From contig AP018282.1 of the NCBI GenBank assembly GCA_002368355.1, positions 1 to 64,000 on the forward strand: a stretch of DNA of 64,000 nt, in the 5' to 3' direction. Below are positions 18,404 to 28,322 of the stretch, piece after piece (positions within the stretch are counted from its first letter, which is position 1; each line of letters opens with the position of its first letter). A program made the position numbers and the translations under genes. The notes under the pieces are model-generated. The model was given only the letters and a program-made list of their open reading frames with translations, had not been told where the DNA came from and searched no databases. This stretch comes from Chondrocystis sp. NIES-4102. GTDB lineage: Bacteria; Cyanobacteriota; Cyanobacteriia; Cyanobacteriales; Xenococcaceae.

Positions 18404-18442
18404 GCTGTACCTCGCAGATGAATTTGGGTAAGTTGAAGTATC

Positions 18443-18590
18443 GGCGGGCATCCTGACTTATCGATTTTGGCTTGATAATTTATACTCAAACCCAAAATTA
18501 AATTACAGTTGCGGGACAGTGTTGGATTTTCACCAAGCTTTCCCCATTAATTCTATTAGCTGCTCACTACTAGAACCGATCTGATGTTTA
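18443..18590 (-). ncRNA. Cobalamin riboswitch
   Basis: On the minus strand the conserved elements appear in order: GGTGAAAATCC (about 18533-18523), TCCCGCAACTGT, and the B12 box AGTCAGGATGCCCGCC at 18458-18443. These match the cobalamin riboswitch consensus. The B12 box ends 40 nt before the cbtB-like start, so control of cbtB translation or transcription is expected. The outer boundary on the 18590 side is approximate. Confidence 0.88.
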
Positions 18591-18631
18591 ATTTTACCAC
18601 GTATACGTATTGTTAGTCTTGGCGATCGCTT

Positions 18632-19293: not shown

Positions 19294-21597
19294 CTAACCA
19301 TGGGTTTTCGGTCGAAAATTACGCAAACGCAAAGCATTTGTTACCACCGACACGGAACTAAATGCCATCGCTGCACCTGCAATGATGGGACTGAGCAACC
19401 AACCAAAGAAAGGATAGAGAATTCCTGCTGCGATGGGAATGCCAGCAATATTGTAGATAAAGGCGAAGAAGAGATTTTGACGAATGTTACGCATAGTAGC
19501 GCGACTTAATTGTATGGCTGTGACAATCCCCTGTAAATCTCCTGAAATCAAGGTGATATCGCTAGCTGCGATCGCTACATCCGTTCCCGTACCAATTGCT
19601 ATTCCTACGTCGGCTTGTGCTAAGGCTGGTGCGTCATTGATGCCATCACCCACCATAGCAACGATTTTACGGGGCGTATAAAGGTCGGAGGTCTTCTCCG
19701 ACCACAGCCCCTCACCTTCTGACTGGATTGCCTCAACTGTAGCAGCTTTTTGTTCGGGGCGAACTTCAGCAAAAACGCGCTCGATTCCTACTTCGCGAGC
19801 AATAACTTCAGCGGTACGGCGGTTGTCTCCAGTTAACATTACCACTTCCAAGCCCATTTTTTGTAAGGCTCGAATTGCTTGAATTGAAGAAGGTTTTACC
19901 GAATCGGCAATGCCCATAATGCCCTGAATTTTTCTATCTACAGCAATCCAAATAACGGTTTTACCGAGATATTCCAATCTCTCCCAGTCTTTTTGTAGGT
20001 TGCTAGTATCTATGTTTAATTCGTTCAGCCAACGGTGTGTTCCAATTTGTATCCATCGATCCCAAACATAGCCTTGTACACCGCTACCAGCGATCGCTTC
20101 AAATTCTTTGACATCATCTAACTTTACCCTTTGAGATTGAGCGTATTGCACGACAGCTTCAGCCAGAGGATGTTCGGAATTTCTTTCTACAGATGCCGCA
20201 AGACACAATAAATTTAATTTGTTGCTGTTGGCAATACCGTTAACGGTTACAAAATCAGTCACAGTCGGTTTACCTTGGGTAATCGTTCCTGTTTTATCAA
20301 GGACGATCGCTTTTAACTTGTGTGCCATTTCTAGGCTTTCTGCACCTTTGATGAGAATGCCATTTTCCGCTCCCTTACCCGTTCCTACCATAATTGAAGT
20401 CGGGGTTGCCAAACCAAGCGCACAGGGACAAGCAATAATTAACACGCCGACTGTGGTAATCAACGCCATCGTTACATTTCCCATGATGTTGTACCAGAGG
20501 ATAAAAGTAGCGATCGCAATGGTAATGACAGCAGGTACAAACCATCCCGTCACGCGATCGGCTAAACGTTGAATCGGTGCTTTTGAGCCTTGTGCTTGCT
20601 GCACCAGCTTGACAATCTGCGCTAAGAAAGTGTCTTTACCTACTTTTGTGGCTTTGAATTTAAAGCTACCAGTTTTATTAATCGTCGCGCCAATAACTTC
20701 ATCGCCCGAACGCTTTTTCACGGCAACGCTTTCACCCGTAACCATCGCTTCATCAATGGTAGAAGCACCTTCAACGATCTCGCCATCGACGGGAATCTTC
20801 TCCCCTGGGCGTACCAAAATGATATCTCCAAGAATTACTTCAGCGATGGGAATATCTATTTCGCGATGATTACGAATCACCCTTGCTGTTTTAGCTTGTA
20901 AACCCATCAGCTTACGAATTGCTTCTGAGGTTTGTCCCCTGGCACGATTTTCTAATAAGCGTCCCAATAAAATCAAGGCAATAATTACCGATGCAGCTTC
21001 AAAGTAGACATCAGGTGTAAGTCCCTGTGCGATAAACCATTGTGGAAAAAAGGTTGGAAATAGTGAATATAAGTAAGCTGTACCCGTACCAATCGCCACT
21101 AGGGTATCCATTGTGGCTGTATGGCGTTTGAGGGCTTTCCAGGCATTGATAAAGAAGGATGAGCCACACCAAAATAGTACAGGCGCAGTCAGCACTAGTT
21201 GTAGCCAAGGATTGTGCATCCATGTAGGAATGAAAGGAATGGGTAATCCTGTCATCATCGGCAGCGAACCAATAACCAGAATGGCACTAATCATTCCGCT
21301 AACCCATACCTTACGAGTCAGTTGACGATTTTCAATTTGTCGCGAGCGTCGTTCTGTATAATCTTCTGGGGCAAGTACCTCGTCTTGCATGGGCAAAGCC
21401 GAATATCCTGCTGCATCGACGGCTTCTTGAATCGCTGCTACATCGGTTCGATCTTGATCGTAAGTGACAGTGGCAAGTTCTGCACCAAAATTGACACTAC
21501 ATTCATTCACGCCTGGAACTGCTCGAATTGCTTCTTCGATATTAATGGCACAAGAGGCACAACTCATGCCTCGCAGTTTCAGATTAGTATTTTCCAC
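19294..21597 (-). CDS. copA: Cu(I)-exporting P-type ATPase CopA
   Basis: A 767-residue Cu(I) pump with one N-terminal HMA domain (GMSCASC, residues 10-16), TGES, the membrane metal site CPC (Cys390, Cys392), phosphorylated D434 in [13 protein letters not shown] and GDGINDAP. It is unusual in carrying about 15 extra residues ([15 protein letters not shown], near 629-643) right before the IVAMVGDG segment, encoded by a palindromic DNA insert. Gene order copZ-copA-mini peptide-cupredoxin defines a copper operon under a MerR-type promoter. Confidence 0.94.
19673..19711 (-). repeat. Palindromic insert within copA
   Basis: Nested inverted repeats: GGTCGGAG (19683-19690) pairs with CTCCGACC (19696-19703), and outer GGGGC (19673-19677) pairs with GCCCC (19707-19711). 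It falls exactly where CopA has extra residues relative to usual family members and keeps the reading frame. Confidence 0.7.
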
Positions 21598-21640
21598 TTC
21601 CTACCTCCTGACTTGGGTTTTCAATAATTCCCAGCATTAT

Positions 21641-21835
21641 TCAGGTAACGGTATAACCTGCTGCTGTAATCGCTTGGGAGATCTCAGCTTCTGATGCTTT
21701 CGTTTCAATTTCGACAAGCTTAGTTTTGGGTTCGGCTCGTACAGTTGCAGTTGGATCGATTTCTTTTATTGCTTTGGTAATGGTATCTCCACAAGCCGAA
21801 CAAGCCATGTTGGGAACTTTAAGTTGTAATGTCAT
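21641..21835 (-). CDS. copZ: CopZ-like HMA-domain copper chaperone
   Basis: A 64-residue HMA protein: MTLQLKVPNMACSACGDTI with the MxCxxC copper site (MACSAC), then the ferredoxin-like fold ending AAGYTV. It should deliver Cu(I) to the CopA encoded 43 nt downstream. The ATG at 21835 starts the homology; the longer in-frame start at 21898 would lie inside the promoter. Transcription is probably from the MerR-type promoter just upstream. Confidence 0.85.
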   Translation of the reverse strand: MTLQLKVPNMACSACGDTITKAIKEIDPTATVRAEPKTKLVEIETKASEAEISQAITAAGYTVT

Positions 21836-21866
21836 AATTTCTACCTTTTTGCGCTCGATTACTTTT

Positions 21867-21898
21867 ATTGTGAAGTCTCTAGTTAACTGGAGAGTCAA
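21867..21898 (-). promoter_or_regulatory. MerR-type promoter for the copZ-copA operon
   Basis: On the minus strand TTGACT (21898-21893) and CACAAT (21872-21867) are separated by 20 bp containing the dyad CTCCAGTTAACTAGAG. The operator belongs to the same family as those at 9979, 10560, 16897 and 33492. Confidence 0.78.
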
Positions 21899-22036
21899 GA
21901 GGGTAAACGAGAAAAATCTAAATATCTATCGAAATGAGTGCCAACAGAGTAATTAGTCTCTATCGGAAGTAGTAGTAGCGCTAATATTTGGTTTGATAGC
22001 ATTGAGGCAACTCGTTACGGAGGCGAACGATAACTG

Positions 22037-22614
22037 ATGAGCATTGTAGACAGCATTTTCATGCGGATGTTCGGTCGTCCTCAAGGAATGCTGGGCAGGT
22101 TGGTGGCATCATTATGGCGCGTATGAATCAAGCGTTCACTTATTCGGTTATCGACCTGCTCGACATTCAACCGAACGATCGAGTGTTGGAAATTGGATTT
22201 GGCTCTGGAATGGGCATTCAGCGTCTAGCTGAGTTGGCATCAACAGGATATATTGCAGGTATCGATTACTCTAAAGAAATGGTCGAGCAAGCTACAGATC
22301 GGAATAGGTCAGCGATCGATGCTGGTTTGGTCGATTTACGGCAAGGTTCGGTGGAAAGCTTGTCCTTTGAAGACAGCACCTTCGATAAAGCACTGGCGGT
22401 TAACTCCATGCAAGTCTGGTCAGATGCCACGCTCGGACTGCGGGAAATGCGGCGAGTCATGAAGAATGTTGATGGCAGGATTGCGCTTGGTTTTACTCCT
22501 TATTCGGGACAGTCGAGTAACGGATTGACTGAGATGCTCACAACTGCTGGCTTCACAGAGGTGCAGCTAGTAGAGACAGAGCGCGGTTTCTGTGCGCTGG
22601 CGATCGCATCATAA
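22037..22614 (+). pseudogene. Frameshifted class I SAM methyltransferase
   Basis: The gene begins at ATG 22037 (MSIVDSIFMRMFGRPQGMLG) and is disrupted near 22101-22106: a one-base loss in a G run (TTGGTGG, expected TTGGGTGG) shifts the frame. The rest continues from about 22102 (GGIIMARMNQ) to 22614 with motif I DRVLEIGFGSG. Without the shift it would parallel the paralogue at 13158-13775 along its length. The downstream ORF from ATG 22114 could still make a 166-residue protein lacking about 26 N-terminal residues. A sequencing error is the alternative. Confidence 0.72.
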
Positions 22615-22662
22615 TCAAAGTAGTGTTCAAGATATTGAATTTAACGTATTTGTGAGAGAAGT

Positions 22663-22685
22663 CCCTATGCCCCTATAGGCTAGGG
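22663..22685 (+). repeat. Bulged hairpin, candidate left-end structure of the tnpB element
   Basis: CCCTATGCC (22663-22671) pairs with GGCTAGGG (22678-22685) leaving one unpaired T in the stem. Imperfect subterminal hairpins with extrahelical bases are typical of IS200/IS605 ends. The exact left boundary could not be set from this one copy. Confidence 0.4.
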
Positions 22686-22730
22686 ATAAATCGAACTTGG
22701 CACTAAGCAAAATTAATTATCTACGACAAT

Positions 22731-22757
22731 TCTATCATTGCATAATATAATGATAGA
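22731..22757 (+). promoter_or_regulatory. Perfect inverted repeat covering the tnpB start codon
   Basis: TCTATCATT (22731-22739) and AATGATAGA (22749-22757) form a 9-bp stem with a 9-nt loop. The predicted tnpB ATG (22750-22752) lies in the 3' arm, so the hairpin would hide the start in mRNA, as known for IS200-type transposase genes. Confidence 0.6.
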
Positions 22758-22763
22758 CATGAT
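22750..22763 (+). other. tnpB exon 1 (5' exon of the group II intron)
   Basis: ATGATAGACATGAT directly precedes the intron's GTGCGAC start. Joined to TAGACAAGTG at 25157 it reads M-I-D-M-I-R-Q-V-Q-K-V-R, in frame with TnpB. Its last six bases CATGAT (IBS1) are complementary to ATCATG at 23035-23040 inside the intron (EBS1). Confidence 0.7.
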
Positions 22764-25156
22764 GTGCGACCTGAAAGTTGCATTTAAGAGTGAGTCCCTA
22801 AGAAAGACTCCAGCTTAGTAGTCAAGGCTGTACCCGCCAAAAGGGGCATTGTTGGTAACAGGAATGTTTCAGAGCTAGATGGTAAAGTGTCTCAAAGTAG
22901 TTAAAACATCCATACTATTAGAGGCTAGGGTAAGACGTACACGATTAACAATAAGTGAACTTGTGTTGAGGCTTCTTAATATCAGAACACCCAATAATGA
23001 TGTTTGGGGTGTAGAGAATTCAGGAATTTATTCCATCATGCAATAAATTTATAGGTAAATCCTCCGAATCAGGATTTACTAGACTACTACGAATCTCGAA
23101 TCAATTAGGAGTAAAGCAAGAATCTAAATACGTCGCATCTCAAAGATGTGAAACAGGAAAAATCCTACTAGGTCTTGGGAGAAGTCGAAATCCCAAGTAA
23201 GCCAACCGCAAGGAAAGCCTAATCCCTGAGAGGGCAAAGGATGTCTAAGAAGCGAATGCCGTCACCCGTAAGGGAACAGGAATTCATAACTGGGCGGATA
23301 GGGTTTTGCCCAACTCGAAAGAGTGCTGACATAGACAGGTGATATCAGCTTTAAATGACAAAGTAAAGAAACCGAATTCGACAGGGAAAAGTTAGATGCC
23401 TAGTGCAAACGTAACCACGAAGACAACCGAATGGCATGAAGTCAATTGGCAGAATGCCTACGACAACGTTAGGAATCTGAGACGACGCATTTTCAAAGCA
23501 ACTCAATCTGAAGACTGGCGGAAAGTCCGTAATCTCCAAAGGTTAATGCTCCGAAGTTACTCTAACGTATTGTTAGCCGTTAGGAAAACAACACAGGATA
23601 ATAAGGGGCGAAAAACTGCGGGAGTAGACAAGGTACTAGTCAAAACACCCCGTAAAAGGGGGCAAATGGTTGACGACTTAATAAACAACCAAGACTGGAA
23701 ACCAAAACCCGTCAGAAGAGTGTACATACCAAAATCAAATGGTAAAAAACGCCCGTTGGGTATTCCGACAATCAAGGACAGATGCTTACAAGCAATTGTA
23801 AAAAATGCTCTTGAACCATGTTGGGAAGCCCAATTTGAGGGAATTAGCTACGGTTTTCGTCCAGGTAAAAGTCCCCATGACGCAATTGCAAAAATATATT
23901 TAGCAGTACGTCCTAATAAAAAGAAAAAGTGGGTGGTAGATGCCGACATCAAAGGATGTTTTGATAATATTGATCATGAACAATTACTCTCTACGATAGG
24001 GAATTTCCCAGGTAGAAGCCTGATTAAAGAATGGTTAAAAGCTGGATATGTTGACAACAACATATTTCATACACAAAACTCTGGAACACCACAAGGTGGA
24101 ATCATTAGCCCACTCTTAGCTAATATTGCCTTACATGGCATGGAAAATGCTTTAGGAATTATATACAATTCTAGAGGCGATTCCATAGGCAAAAGAATTG
24201 TGGTTAGATACGCCGATGACTTTGTAATCCTATGTGAATCCAAACAGGACGCAGACAAAGCCAGAAGTGACATAGATAACTGGCTATCTCTCAAAGGATT
24301 AAATTTATCCTCAGAAAAGACCAATATCGTACACATCACGGAAGGCTTTGACTTCCTCGGTTTCAACATCAGGCATTACAAAGTCAACAATACGAAAACT
24401 GGCTATAAACTCCTGATTAAACCTAGTAAGAAATTCCTACAAAATACTCGAAAAGACTTGAGAGAAATTTTTCTCAAGCATTCGGGAGAAAGAATAGGAA
24501 AACTAATAGGGGAAATTAACCCAGTAATACGAGGAAAAGCCAATTACATAAATAAAGTAGTGTCTTCCAAGATATTCTCAAAATTAGATGATTATCTATT
24601 CTTAAGACAGGTTAGATTCGTAAAGCGTACACACCCAAAGAAAAAGAAAAAGTGGACGCAGAACAAATACTGGGGAAGATTAAATCTACAAAGGAAAGAT
24701 AACTGGGTCTTTGGAGATAAAGAATCAGGAAACCTCATGCTAAAGTTTAGCTGGACAAAGATTGAACGACACTCACTTGTAAAGAAAAGGGCTTCACCTG
24801 ATGACCCTTCACTCCAAGAGTACTGGTCAAAAAGAAACAAGAAAAGTCAAAAATCAGAAGCAGTTAAATTTAGTGCGAAGCAAGAACAAGTAGCATATAA
24901 ACAAGGTTATAAATGCCCCGTGTGTAGTCAATCATTGTTTAACAATGAACCTCTACATTTACACCATATCGTACCTAAAGGCGAAGGTGGAAAAGACACA
25001 ATAAATAACTTAGTTTGGTTACATCTGTTCTGCCATCATAAGGTACACTATGAAAACTAAAAAGATTAAGCGATATTGCTTGAGCCGAGTGCTTGGAAAC
25101 TTGCACGCTCGGTTCTGAGGGGGGAAAAGAACAGTGATGTCCTCGCCCTACCCGAC
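22764..25156 (+). mobile_element. Group II intron (2393 nt) inserted in tnpB
   Basis: The 5' end GTGCGACCTG fits the GUGYG consensus. A structured leader of about 630 nt precedes the maturase ORF. Domain V is clear at about 25082-25115 (GAGCCGAGTGC, GAAA-type loop, GCACGCTCGGTTC), followed by a domain VI stem and a 3' end CCCGAC (AY) at 25156. EBS1 ATCATG (23035-23040) pairs with IBS1 CATGAT (22758-22763); CTATTA (22915-22920) is a candidate EBS2 for TGATAG (22751-22756) with one G-U pair. The element looks complete and probably active. Confidence 0.88.
23396..25060 (+). CDS. ltrA: Group II intron reverse transcriptase/maturase with HNH endonuclease domain
   Basis: A 554-residue intron-encoded protein that reverse-transcribes the intron, assists splicing and cuts the target. 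Visible parts: an N-terminal RT0-like region (TEWHEVNWQNAYDNVRNLRR), fingers and palm (RRVYIPKSNGKKRPLGIPTI, GFRPGKSPHDAI, GTPQGGIISPLLANI), the catalytic RYADDF, maturase domain X (about 340-450), and an HNH/En domain with CPVC, HLHHIVPKGEGG and FCHHKVH. Length and all motifs are intact. It starts 632 nt into the intron, in the usual domain IV position. Confidence 0.95.
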   Translation: MPSANVTTKTTEWHEVNWQNAYDNVRNLRRRIFKATQSEDWRKVRNLQRLMLRSYSNVLLAVRKTTQDNKGRKTAGVDKVLVKTPRKRGQMVDDLINNQDWKPKPVRRVYIPKSNGKKRPLGIPTIKDRCLQAIVKNALEPCWEAQFEGISYGFRPGKSPHDAIAKIYLAVRPNKKKKWVVDADIKGCFDNIDHEQLLSTIGNFPGRSLIKEWLKAGYVDNNIFHTQNSGTPQGGIISPLLANIALHGMENALGIIYNSRGDSIGKRIVVRYADDFVILCESKQDADKARSDIDNWLSLKGLNLSSEKTNIVHITEGFDFLGFNIRHYKVNNTKTGYKLLIKPSKKFLQNTRKDLREIFLKHSGERIGKLIGEINPVIRGKANYINKVVSSKIFSKLDDYLFLRQVRFVKRTHPKKKKKWTQNKYWGRLNLQRKDNWVFGDKESGNLMLKFSWTKIERHSLVKKRASPDDPSLQEYWSKRNKKSQKSEAVKFSAKQEQVAYKQGYKCPVCSQSLFNNEPLHLHHIVPKGEGGKDTINNLVWLHLFCHHKVHYEN

Positions 25157-26366
25157 TAGACAAGTGCAAAAAGTACGAATTTATCCAACTGACGAACAAA
25201 AGCAGCAACTAGCAGGTGCTATGGGTTGTTCTCGCTGGTGGTGGAATTTTGCTTTGAACAAAAGTATTGAAATCTACAAGGAGACGGGCAAAGGCTTATC
25301 TCGTGCAGGACTAAATGCTTTACTGCCTAGTCTAAAGCAAGAACATGAGTGGTTAAAAACAGAGGTTTATTCTCAATCCCTGCAACAAACATCACTTAAT
25401 TTGTCTCGCGCTTTTATCAACTTTTTTGAGAAGCGGGCTAAATTCCCTAGATATAAATCGAAGCATGGTAAGCAGTCTGTCGGGTTTCCTCAGTCGGTTA
25501 CAGTCAATGGTGATTGGATTAAGATACCTAAAATTGGCTTAGTTAAAGCAGTATTTGACCGTCGCTACAATGGGACAATCAAAACCGTAACTGTAACTGA
25601 AGATAGCTCTGACAGATTCTTTGCTGCGATTATTTATGAGCTAGAAGCTTGTTTTATTTCGAGTAACGGAGATAAAATCATCGGACTTGATCTAGGGATC
25701 AAGGATTTGATTATTGCTCATGATGGAAATAAAACTAGCAAATATGCAAATCCCAAACACACGAAAAAGTATACCAAAAATCTAGCTCGTAAACAACAAA
25801 AGTTAGCTCGAAAAGTAAAAGGTTCTAGAACCAGAGCCAAAGCTAAGAAACTAGTAGCTAAGATTCATGCACGTATAACAAATGCCCGTCAGGACTACTT
25901 ACACAAGCTAAGTAGAAAACTGACTAACGAAAGCCAAGTAGTGATAGTAGAAAACCTTCACGTAAAGGGCATGGTGCGTAATCACAAATTAGCTAAAGCA
26001 ATATCTGATTGTGGATGGGGAACTTTGGTCAACTTTCTAAGTTACAAACTAGAACGTGAAAATAAGCGCTTAGTTGAAATTGACAGATTTTTTCCCAGTT
26101 CACATATTTGTCCCGACTGCTTAACTCAAACTCCGAAGATGGATTTGAGTATTAGAGAATGGATTTGCTTGAACCAATCATGCGGTAAAACTCACGATCG
26201 TGATATCGCTGCTAGTCGCAATATCAGGGCAGAAGGAATCAGAATCATACAGACGGATGGAACAGCCGTCTCTGCTAGTGAAGGGAGCGTAAGACAAGAC
26301 CGAGGACGAAAGACCAAGGTAATGCAGCACCCAGCGAAGCTAGAAACTACCTGCTCAACAAAGTAG
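25137..26366 (+). CDS. tnpB: TnpB (IS605/IS1341-type RNA-guided nuclease), main exon
   Basis: TnpB with a RuvC-type active site: GLDLGIKD (Asp), IVENLHVKGM (Glu) and THDRDIAASRNI (Asp), plus a zinc finger (CPDC and CLNQSCG). These nucleases use an RNA from the element's right end as guide. The homologous region starts with RQVQKVRIYPTDEQ at about 25158, immediately after the intron's 3' end, so the native gene is probably exon 22750-22763 joined to 25157-26366. Without splicing, an ATG at 25137 inside the intron could start translation (MSSPYPTRQVQ). No tnpA is adjacent. The stop codon lies in a right-end hairpin. Confidence 0.9.
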   Translation: MSSPYPTRQVQKVRIYPTDEQKQQLAGAMGCSRWWWNFALNKSIEIYKETGKGLSRAGLNALLPSLKQEHEWLKTEVYSQSLQQTSLNLSRAFINFFEKRAKFPRYKSKHGKQSVGFPQSVTVNGDWIKIPKIGLVKAVFDRRYNGTIKTVTVTEDSSDRFFAAIIYELEACFISSNGDKIIGLDLGIKDLIIAHDGNKTSKYANPKHTKKYTKNLARKQQKLARKVKGSRTRAKAKKLVAKIHARITNARQDYLHKLSRKLTNESQVVIVENLHVKGMVRNHKLAKAISDCGWGTLVNFLSYKLERENKRLVEIDRFFPSSHICPDCLTQTPKMDLSIREWICLNQSCGKTHDRDIAASRNIRAEGIRIIQTDGTAVSASEGSVRQDRGRKTKVMQHPAKLETTCSTK

Positions 26367-26380
26367 CAGGTAGTAGTTCA
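26271..26380 (+). ncRNA. Candidate omega-RNA/right-end region of the tnpB element
   Basis: TnpB guide RNAs overlap the 3' end of tnpB and run to the right end of the element. Here the last 95 nt of tnpB and the following bases are rich in potential pairing. They end in a strong hairpin, ACTACCTGCT (26346-26355) with AGCAGGTAGT (26365-26374), that includes the stop codon. The exact RNA ends and guide start cannot be fixed from a single copy. Confidence 0.45.
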
Positions 26381-26393
26381 TAACAGTAGCTTA

Positions 26394-27716
26394 CTAATTT
26401 ATATGCAGCCACCCTGAAAATGTTTGCAATAATAACCAAGCATTCAAACCAACGATAATCGTCGCTACTGCACCAGCTAACAGCTTTAACCAAGTTGGAT
26501 TGACAAACTCACCCATCAAACGGCGATCGCTAGTAAACATGATCAAAGGAATCACCGCAAAAGATAGCTGTAAACTTAGCACAACCTGACTGGCAATTAA
26601 TAAACTACCCGTACTCTTTTCTCCATAAAAAATAATCGCAATTAAAGCAGGAATAATAGCCAGTAATCTAGTTGCCAAACGTCGCACCCAAGGAGGAAGG
26701 CGAAATCGTAAAAAACCTTCCATGACAATTTGTCCTGCTAAAGTGGCTGTTAGGGTAGAACTTTGTCCAGAAGCTAATAAGGCAACCCCAAAAATAGCAC
26801 TAGCTGCACTCACTCCTAATAAAGGTGAAAGTAATTTATAAGCATCTTGAATCTCTGCAACTTGCTGATAGCCAGAAAAATGAAAAGTTGCAGCAGCAAC
26901 TATTAAAATAGCTGAATTAATAAACAAGGCAAAGGATAAAGCTATAGTCGAATCAATCGTGCCAAATTTAATTGCTTCCCATCTTTTTTCAGCTGTTGGT
27001 TGCCAAGCGCGAGTTTGTACGATTGAAGAATGTAAATATAAGTTGTGAGGCATTACCGTTGCCCCTAAAATCGCGATCGCCAGGTAGAGCATTTCTGGAT
27101 TTCTGACTACTTCTGATTTAGGCAAATATCCCTGTAAAATGCCTGCTACATCTGGTTTGGAGAAAATAATTTCGGCGGCGAAACAAATTCCTACGGTTGC
27201 GACTAGAGTAATGACTAAAGCTTCTACGTAACGAAAACCTTTTCCTTGTAGTAGTAACAATAACAGTACATCTGAGGCAGTAATACAGACTCCCCAAATT
27301 AAAGGAATACCAAATAATAGTTGCAGGGCGATCGCACTTCCCAATAATTCTGCTAAATCACAGGCTGCGATCGCAATTTCACACAATATCCATAAGCAGA
27401 AATTAATCTTTCCAGGAAAATAATCCCGACACGCCTGTGCTAAATCTCTTCCCGTGGCTACTCCCAACCTGACGCATAAAGATTGCAATAAAATCGCCAT
27501 CAAATTTGAGAGTAATATAACCGTCAAGAGTGCATAGCCAAAAGAAGCACCTCCAGCTATATCCGTCGCCCAGTTACCAGGATCCATATATCCCACGGAG
27601 ACTAGGTATCCAGGGCCAGCATAAGCTAGCATTTTGCGCCAAAAACCCTTCCCCTGTGGAATTTTAATGCTGCGGTGAACTTCAGACAAACTGGGCTGAT
27701 TGGATGGTAGAGACAT
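26394..27716 (-). CDS. mntH: NRAMP-family divalent metal (Mn/Fe) transporter
   Basis: Proton-coupled importer of Mn(II) or Fe(II), 440 residues with about 11 helices. The family motifs are intact: helix 1 DPGNWATDI (metal-binding Asp-Pro-Gly-Asn) and helix 6 MPHNLYLHSSIVQTR (metal-binding Met). It diverges from a ziaR-like repressor gene across a 210-bp gap with a SmtB-type operator and a Fur/Zur-like box, so metal-dependent control is likely. Its 3' end lies close to the tnpB element. Confidence 0.93.
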   Translation of the reverse strand: MSLPSNQPSLSEVHRSIKIPQGKGFWRKMLAYAGPGYLVSVGYMDPGNWATDIAGGASFGYALLTVILLSNLMAILLQSLCVRLGVATGRDLAQACRDYFPGKINFCLWILCEIAIAACDLAELLGSAIALQLLFGIPLIWGVCITASDVLLLLLLQGKGFRYVEALVITLVATVGICFAAEIIFSKPDVAGILQGYLPKSEVVRNPEMLYLAIAILGATVMPHNLYLHSSIVQTRAWQPTAEKRWEAIKFGTIDSTIALSFALFINSAILIVAAATFHFSGYQQVAEIQDAYKLLSPLLGVSAASAIFGVALLASGQSSTLTATLAGQIVMEGFLRFRLPPWVRRLATRLLAIIPALIAIIFYGEKSTGSLLIASQVVLSLQLSFAVIPLIMFTSDRRLMGEFVNPTWLKLLAGAVATIIVGLNAWLLLQTFSGWLHIN

Positions 27717-27813
27717 TCATTTTAATGATTTTTTCTCATAATCTTTTCATAATCTAGCATTAAAACAATTTTTTTCATAATTGTCTCATAATTAAAATAA
27801 TCTATTTGTTCAT

Positions 27814-27829
27814 TTGAATAGACATTCAA
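27814..27829. promoter_or_regulatory. SmtB/ArsR-type operator in the mntH-ziaR gap
   Basis: TTGAAT (27814-27819) and ATTCAA (27824-27829) form a perfect inverted repeat with a 4-nt spacer, the TGAA...TTCA type recognised by SmtB/ZiaR-class repressors. It is about 100 nt from either start codon. Confidence 0.6.
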
Positions 27830-27833
27830 GCTT

Positions 27834-27852
27834 AAAATGAGTATCATTATCA
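27834..27852 (-). promoter_or_regulatory. Fur/Zur-like box
   Basis: On the minus strand this reads GATAATGATACTCATTTTA, close to the Fur/Zur consensus GATAATGATAATCATTATC in the first ten bases and weaker after. It could make mntH or ziaR respond to iron or zinc. Confidence 0.4.
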
Positions 27853-27926
27853 AAGAAGTAAACTCAAAACTCTATTAACCCAGTATTGTCTAAACAACTA
27901 AACTGACAAGGTTTAAAGTCTAAACA

Positions 27927-28322
27927 ATGAATAAAGTTGACAAATCAAAAAAAATAGTTTCTCCAGAAGGTGATGCACCAACTTGTGATTCTTCTTTAGT
28001 TCATTTAGAACAAGTGCGCCAAGTGCAGTCGGAAATTGTAACTACAGAGAAAGCACAGCAGATGGCTCAGTTTTTTGGCGCGATGGCAGATCCCCATCGG
28101 CTTAAGCTCCTTTCTGCTTTGGCAAAAGCCGAACTTTGTGTCTGTGACTTAGCAGCGGTAGTAAAGATGAGTGAATCTGCGGTATCTCATCAGTTACGTC
28201 TGCTACGAAATCTACGTCTGGTCAAACATCGCCGTGAAGGTCGTAACGTTTATTACAGTTTGGCAGACGCACACATTGCCAATCTTTATCGGGAAGTAGC
28301 GGAACATTTAGACGAGGTTTAA
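27927..28322 (+). CDS. ziaR: ZiaR/SmtB-like zinc-responsive ArsR-family repressor
   Basis: A 131-residue winged-helix repressor (SESAVSHQLRLLRNLRLVKHR recognition region). Both zinc-site types of this subfamily are visible: alpha3N Cys residues in ELCVCDLA with an N-terminal Cys/His stretch (CDSSLVH), and the alpha5 site D-x-H...H-xx-E in DAHIANLYREVAEHLDE. This layout matches ZiaR of Synechocystis. It is followed by a zinc-type ATPase gene with a SmtB-type operator between them. Confidence 0.88.
   Translation: MNKVDKSKKIVSPEGDAPTCDSSLVHLEQVRQVQSEIVTTEKAQQMAQFFGAMADPHRLKLLSALAKAELCVCDLAAVVKMSESAVSHQLRLLRNLRLVKHRREGRNVYYSLADAHIANLYREVAEHLDEV

Follow-up and report, generated by a model that had tools for sequence, protein, structure and literature searches.

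A group II intron nested in the tnpB gene of an IS200/IS605-type element of Chondrocystis sp. NIES-4102

Organization of the Locus

The DNA analyzed here (referred to as the window; 64,000 nt, positions 1 to 64,000 of contig AP018282.1, assembly GCA_002368355.1) derives from the cyanobacterium Chondrocystis sp. NIES-4102 and contains a tnpB gene of the IS200/IS605 type which is interrupted by a group II intron of 2393 nt. An earlier note, made from the sequence alone, had proposed that such an intron splits tnpB, and this was confirmed by a match to the Rfam model RF00029, by an open reading frame (ORF) for a reverse transcriptase (RT)/maturase, by ends shared with other introns and by relatives of the gene in which the site is unoccupied. 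With all its recognizable parts apparently intact, the intron looks complete. The features of the locus, all on the forward strand, are as follows (EBS, exon-binding site; IBS, intron-binding site).

22731..22757, +, left-end hairpin of the tnpB element (DNA fold; similar left ends in relatives)
22750..22763, +, 5′ exon as delimited in the earlier note, including the conserved start codon ATG at 22759-22761 (8 relatives)
22758..22763, +, IBS1, CATGAT (pairing and control)
22764..25156, +, group II intron, 2393 nt (ends shared by homologous copies; unoccupied tnpB relatives)
23035..23040, +, EBS1, ATCATG, in a domain I hairpin loop as judged by eye (pairing and control)
23396..25060, +, RT/maturase with HNH endonuclease, 554 aa (Pfam, NCBIfam, 6me0_C)
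25080..25156, +, domain V, domain VI and 3′ splice site (RF00029, 62.4 bits)
25134..25139, +, GTG and ATG in the 3′ end of the intron, in the tnpB frame; possible start without splicing (ORF list)
25157..26366, +, 3′ exon with nearly all of tnpB (Pfam, NCBIfam guided_TnpB)
26242..26381, +, structured 3′ region, omega-RNA-like, ending at GTAGTTCAT (covariation, 10 sequences)
26346..26374, +, right-end hairpin (covarying stem)

Intron Boundaries and Encoded Proteins

Both boundaries of the intron (GTGCGAC at the 5′ end, CCCGAC at the 3′ end) are fixed, because homologous introns of related genomes, which are inserted at other sites, share them. The sequence GTGCGA is common to all homologs whose 5′ end was reached, and CCCGAC terminates most of them, the exceptions being L080 and L081 (CCCTAC) and L098 (CCCGAT; L and G numbers are our labels for loci and genomes). 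The RF00029 match, covering domain V to the 3′ end, clearly exceeds the gathering score of 40 bits, and no group I intron family of Rfam reached its gathering score in the window. No other close copy of the intron occurs in its own genome, where the long match ranking next shares 66% identity.

The intron ORF at 23396-25060 contains the Pfam domains RVT_1, RVT_N, GIIM and HNH as well as a YADD motif (at 24209), and it lies above the NCBIfam cut-off for group II RT/maturases (365 vs. 300 bits). The nearest solved protein is 6me0_C, named a maturase reverse transcriptase (E 9.6e-122), which is TeI4h of Thermosynechococcus elongatus, a representative of the same intron group as the F4 introns discussed below. 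The 3′ exon scores 307 bits with NCBIfam guided_TnpB (cut-off 100), is matched by Pfam as well and encodes the RuvC motifs and zinc-finger cysteines of TnpB. Maturase, domain V and the RuvC residues of TnpB look intact, as the earlier note had stated.

Apart from the intron, the tnpB element looks complete, and both of its ends lie outside the intron. The left-end hairpin (TCTATCATT...AATGATAGA) is intact and directly precedes the intron; similar left ends occur in relatives. Folded as DNA it forms a stem of 9 bp with a z-score of -2.12, and 8 of 200 shuffled sequences fold as well. The relatives inspected share the right end GTAGTTCAT. The 140 nt leading up to it (26242-26381) fold into a structure of 36 base pairs, and for 17 of these at least one of the 10 sequences compared has both partners exchanged, a covariation as expected of an omega RNA. 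A tnpA gene was not detected among the main flanking ORFs tested; in tnpB-only elements a neighboring tnpA is not required.

Target Recognition and Splice Junction

The predicted pairing between CATGAT, the last six bases of the 5′ exon, and ATCATG in domain I held up in comparison with related introns. An exact complement of the own last six 5′-exon bases was present in domain I of 9 out of 11 introns, the one of the window included, vs. 5 out of 110 when complements to the exons of other copies were counted as a control (L082 and L087, for which no aligned domain I was available, were left out). As judged by eye, the matches sit in one of two hairpin loops. An EBS1-IBS1 pairing is thereby supported.

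Unoccupied relatives of tnpB allowed the junction to be read directly. L021, L022 and L027 carry GATAGACATGAT up to the predicted junction and TAGA behind it, so that the intron-less homologs, which the earlier note had named as a check, agree with its exon junction. When 22763 is joined to 25157, the reading frame is open through the entire TnpB; accurate splicing would thus restore the nuclease frame, as had been expected. The position of the intron after a fifth codon, also put forward, has to be revised: the cut falls within a codon (AT before the intron, T after it), which is most likely codon 2, counted from ATG 22759. This count is preferred because ATG is found at 22759 in all eight relatives with readable 5′ end, while at 22750 three of them have ATG, three GTG (L022, L027, L029) and two (L023, L028) lack a start codon. 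It is tempered by the fact that GTG, too, can start a gene.

In the unspliced transcript, translation from ATG 22759 would stop after 19 codons. The tnpB frame is also open upstream of the 3′ exon into the 3′ end of the intron, as far as GTG 25134 and ATG 25137.

Searches for Further Copies of the Composite

With a pattern derived from the junction, the combination of intron and tnpB was detected in one of 388 genomes of the order, namely the one from which the window derives. A second pattern, which is strict as it fixes much of domain V, matched twice over the genome contigs (L077 and L078), and neither locus encodes TnpB according to its translation. The negative outcome of this second search is weak, because the pattern would miss the domain V of L172, an intron in tnpB found later. 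Among plasmids, 48 records match part of the query and none holds 80% of it; the top-ranked matches are cyanobacterial, and Streptomyces, Sinorhizobium and others are also represented among the 48. The search of phages gave no match to the query.

Group II Introns in OMEGA Nuclease Genes

For an estimate of how often group II introns reside in such genes, 99 domain V hits were examined: 19 from the own genome (18 of them above cut-off), 40 of 46 from one set and 40 of 229 from another. The latter was sampled among the matches listed; at least 150 of the 229 stem from a single genome, G042, of which eight were taken, and the others followed the listed order with one row of G016 left out. TnpB was searched at the introns on both strands with a hidden Markov model (HMM) built on 29 sequences plus two HMMs of one sequence each, and the second exon of L174 and the first exons were read by eye.

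Eight of the 99 introns split an OMEGA nuclease gene (seven tnpB, one isrB-like), all eight in sense, and three of them belong to the own genome. From gene density (1.25 kb per PF01385 match, plus two RRXRR genes in the own genome) 0.62 splits would be expected (Poisson P 3e-7). The own genome has 20 OrfB_IS605 matches, 19 above cut-off, next to its 18 domain V hits above cut-off. Further splits with a frame open across the junction are L121 (G007) and L167, L172, L174 and L176 (all G038). The last of these was added to an initial seven after its 5′ junction had been read, its intron starting with GC, not GT. The genes of L121 and L176 are degraded downstream. Four of the eight splits (window, L121, L172, L176) are located in roughly the first 25 codons of the gene, and in L157, which was not counted as a split, the intron ends 15 nt upstream of the tnpB ATG. 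Leaving out the own genome, 5 of 80 introns remain vs. 0.52 expected (P 2e-4); leaving out G038 in addition, it is 1 of 67 vs. 0.29 (P 0.25). The excess rests on these two genomes (3 of 19 in the own genome, 4 of 13 in G038).

Several candidates were rejected. An apparent TnpB alongside the intron L127 was dropped: the query behind it, the longest ORF found in L063, did not match the TnpB of the window, and the frame resembles an ABC transporter by eye. In L124, L140, L154 and L193 a tnpB lies close by, not at the junction, the one of L124 on the opposite strand.

Further intron loci came to light in the course of these analyses. On the small contig C5 of the own genome (G000; L099, L112) a TnpB-family gene is split by a different intron, of which the genome has five nearly identical copies; the two exons of the gene join in one open frame provided that C5 is circular. 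An IS200 tnpA adjoins the gene, which reaches 77.7 bits with guided_TnpB, below the cut-off of 100. Another copy of this intron (L113:1546-4208, contig C1 of G000) splits an IscB/IsrB-like gene with 95.5 bits for guided_IscB (below the cut-off of 175), an RRXRR match above its cut-off and, by eye, no HNH between the RuvC parts. In all five copies examined of yet another intron (L160-L163 of G016 and L104 of G000, contig C1 near 1924065) the 3′ exon starts with SPLLANI of the RT of another intron, and in four of the five the 5′ exon ends at most two codons after PQGG; judged from these exons, the intron seems to home into the RT genes of other introns. For the genome G042, of the same order, no fewer than 150 matches to group II domain V were counted in 3.8 Mb.

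Genomic Neighborhood

The main flanking ORFs encode a methyltransferase, a P-type ATPase, a heavy-metal-domain protein, an Nramp transporter and an ArsR-type regulator. The latter four, the ATPase being of the heavy-metal type, fall within 19294-28322 around the tnpB element. A cobalamin riboswitch was found at 18426-18593 on the reverse strand (56.3 bits).

Discussion

In our opinion the locus very probably represents a mobile group II intron nested in a resident tnpB element, brought there by ordinary retro-insertion and expected to splice, and not a co-evolved composite. In favor of this reading are the intron ends shared with homologs at other sites, the unoccupied junction in relatives, the EBS1-IBS1 pairing, domain V and the RT, maturase and HNH domains, the single close copy in the own genome and the further introns in OMEGA genes of the own and related genomes. 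The history of the locus would then be as follows. The intron would have inserted in sense into tnpB, just inside the left end of the IS200/IS605-type element, guided by the EBS1-IBS1 pairing and aided by its own RT, most likely through reverse splicing into DNA and subsequent reverse transcription. From the tnpB mRNA it would be expected to splice, thereby restoring a presumably active TnpB, and the 3′ guide-RNA region, being located in the other exon, would be unaffected by it. Insertion route and splicing are proposed because they are established knowledge of group II introns. The intron may have been kept since its target is dispensable and splicing hides the insertion.

Some results weigh against this interpretation. 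For domains I to IV of the intron no Rfam model matched at E values up to 0.1, and only domains V and VI were recognized. The segment 25061-25200, comprising the 3′ end of the intron and the start of the exon, folds no better than shuffled sequences (z -0.88). Two of the 11 related introns failed the six-base test, L079 with wobble pairing only and L083 with no pairing. Of the two exon-binding sites for which the earlier note had sought confirmation, EBS1 stood, and for EBS2 no convincing candidate was seen.

If the intron spliced poorly or not at all, TnpB could still be made from GTG 25134 or ATG 25137 and splicing would be irrelevant to it. The open frame of tnpB reaches up to 25134 and includes two start codons, a purine-rich GAGGGGGG precedes them and the resulting protein would differ in its first residues alone. 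We nevertheless consider this quite improbable: the intron possesses the known components of a functional one, the region in question is part of the ribozyme and a matching frame arises by chance in one case out of three. The same in-frame start codons make it conceivable that splicing decides which TnpB N terminus is made, as had been suggested; this is possible on the strength of the reading frames, and the one-in-three coincidence would suffice to explain them.

A partnership like that of IStrons, in which intron and tnpB element move as a unit, would be compatible with the element ends flanking the intron and with the second intron of the own genome, which lies in a TnpB-family gene adjacent to an IS200 tnpA. 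Both intron and element could be mobilized by a transposase supplied in trans, with splicing hiding the intron from tnpB. The composite, however, occupies one place in the own genome and, by the junction pattern, a single genome among the 388, related introns reside at other sites, and the intron, equipped with a mobility protein of its own, interrupts tnpB alone instead of spanning the element. We therefore regard movement as a unit as very unlikely, and the IStron-like partnership drawn up in the earlier note gains little from these data.

It could also be argued that OMEGA genes are favored homes of introns beyond their dispensability, for example if DNA close to the hairpin ends becomes single-stranded during transposition. 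The count of splits, their uniform orientation, the clustering of half of them near the start codon and the position of the L157 intron speak for such a preference. Against it stand that the comparison was made post hoc, that the two genomes named above carry the excess, that the count has no control on other dispensable genes and that two of the eight genes are degraded; we hold it to be rather unlikely. Until shown otherwise, the excess is read as a haven effect, since dispensable genes are where introns survive best and the count was confined to OMEGA nuclease genes, leaving aside other classes of transposase genes. The wider proposal that tnpB and isrB-like genes are recurrent homes of several cyanobacterial group II intron lineages, the production of the OMEGA nuclease depending on splicing in some of them, and hence a group II counterpart of the IStron which arose repeatedly, is put forward tentatively and appears to us somewhat unlikely.

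The closest precedent found is that of T. elongatus, where three group II introns occupy a conserved site of ISEL1, a member of the IS200 family (PMC2882425). Like the present case, these F4 introns are cyanobacterial group II introns within an IS200-family element; they differ in that they have no ORF, exist in three copies at one conserved site and, in the passages describing them, tnpB is not named as the interrupted gene. Because this precedent is published, the case described here belongs to a known kind. IStrons, which consist of a group I intron and an insertion sequence, likewise combine a transposon with a self-splicing intron at a single locus, and their group I ribozyme renders the whole insertion harmless (PMC4227781); the intron of the window is of group II, has its own RT and lies within tnpB only. 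A group IIB intron associated with integrons is likewise found near an IS200/605 element, side by side with it and not nested (PMC7923331). With IS200/IS605 TnpB (OMEGA) elements the element shares the TnpB family, the end hairpins and the structured 3′ RNA, and it differs from them by the lack of an adjacent tnpA and by the intron. In the literature as far as available, including the accessible parts of PMC12558985 and PMC11061315 and with closed-access articles outside this scope, no description of group II introns splitting tnpB or isrB was found.

Even as an ordinary nested insertion the finding bears on annotation, as seemingly broken or oddly started tnpB genes may be spliced. The sampling suggests that OMEGA nuclease genes merit a systematic look as intron homes, and the case on the small contig C5, where tnpA accompanies a TnpB-family gene interrupted by an intron, would allow a joint study of both mobilities. 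If splicing is needed for TnpB, a ribozyme would gate an RNA-guided nuclease whose guide RNA sits in the same element.

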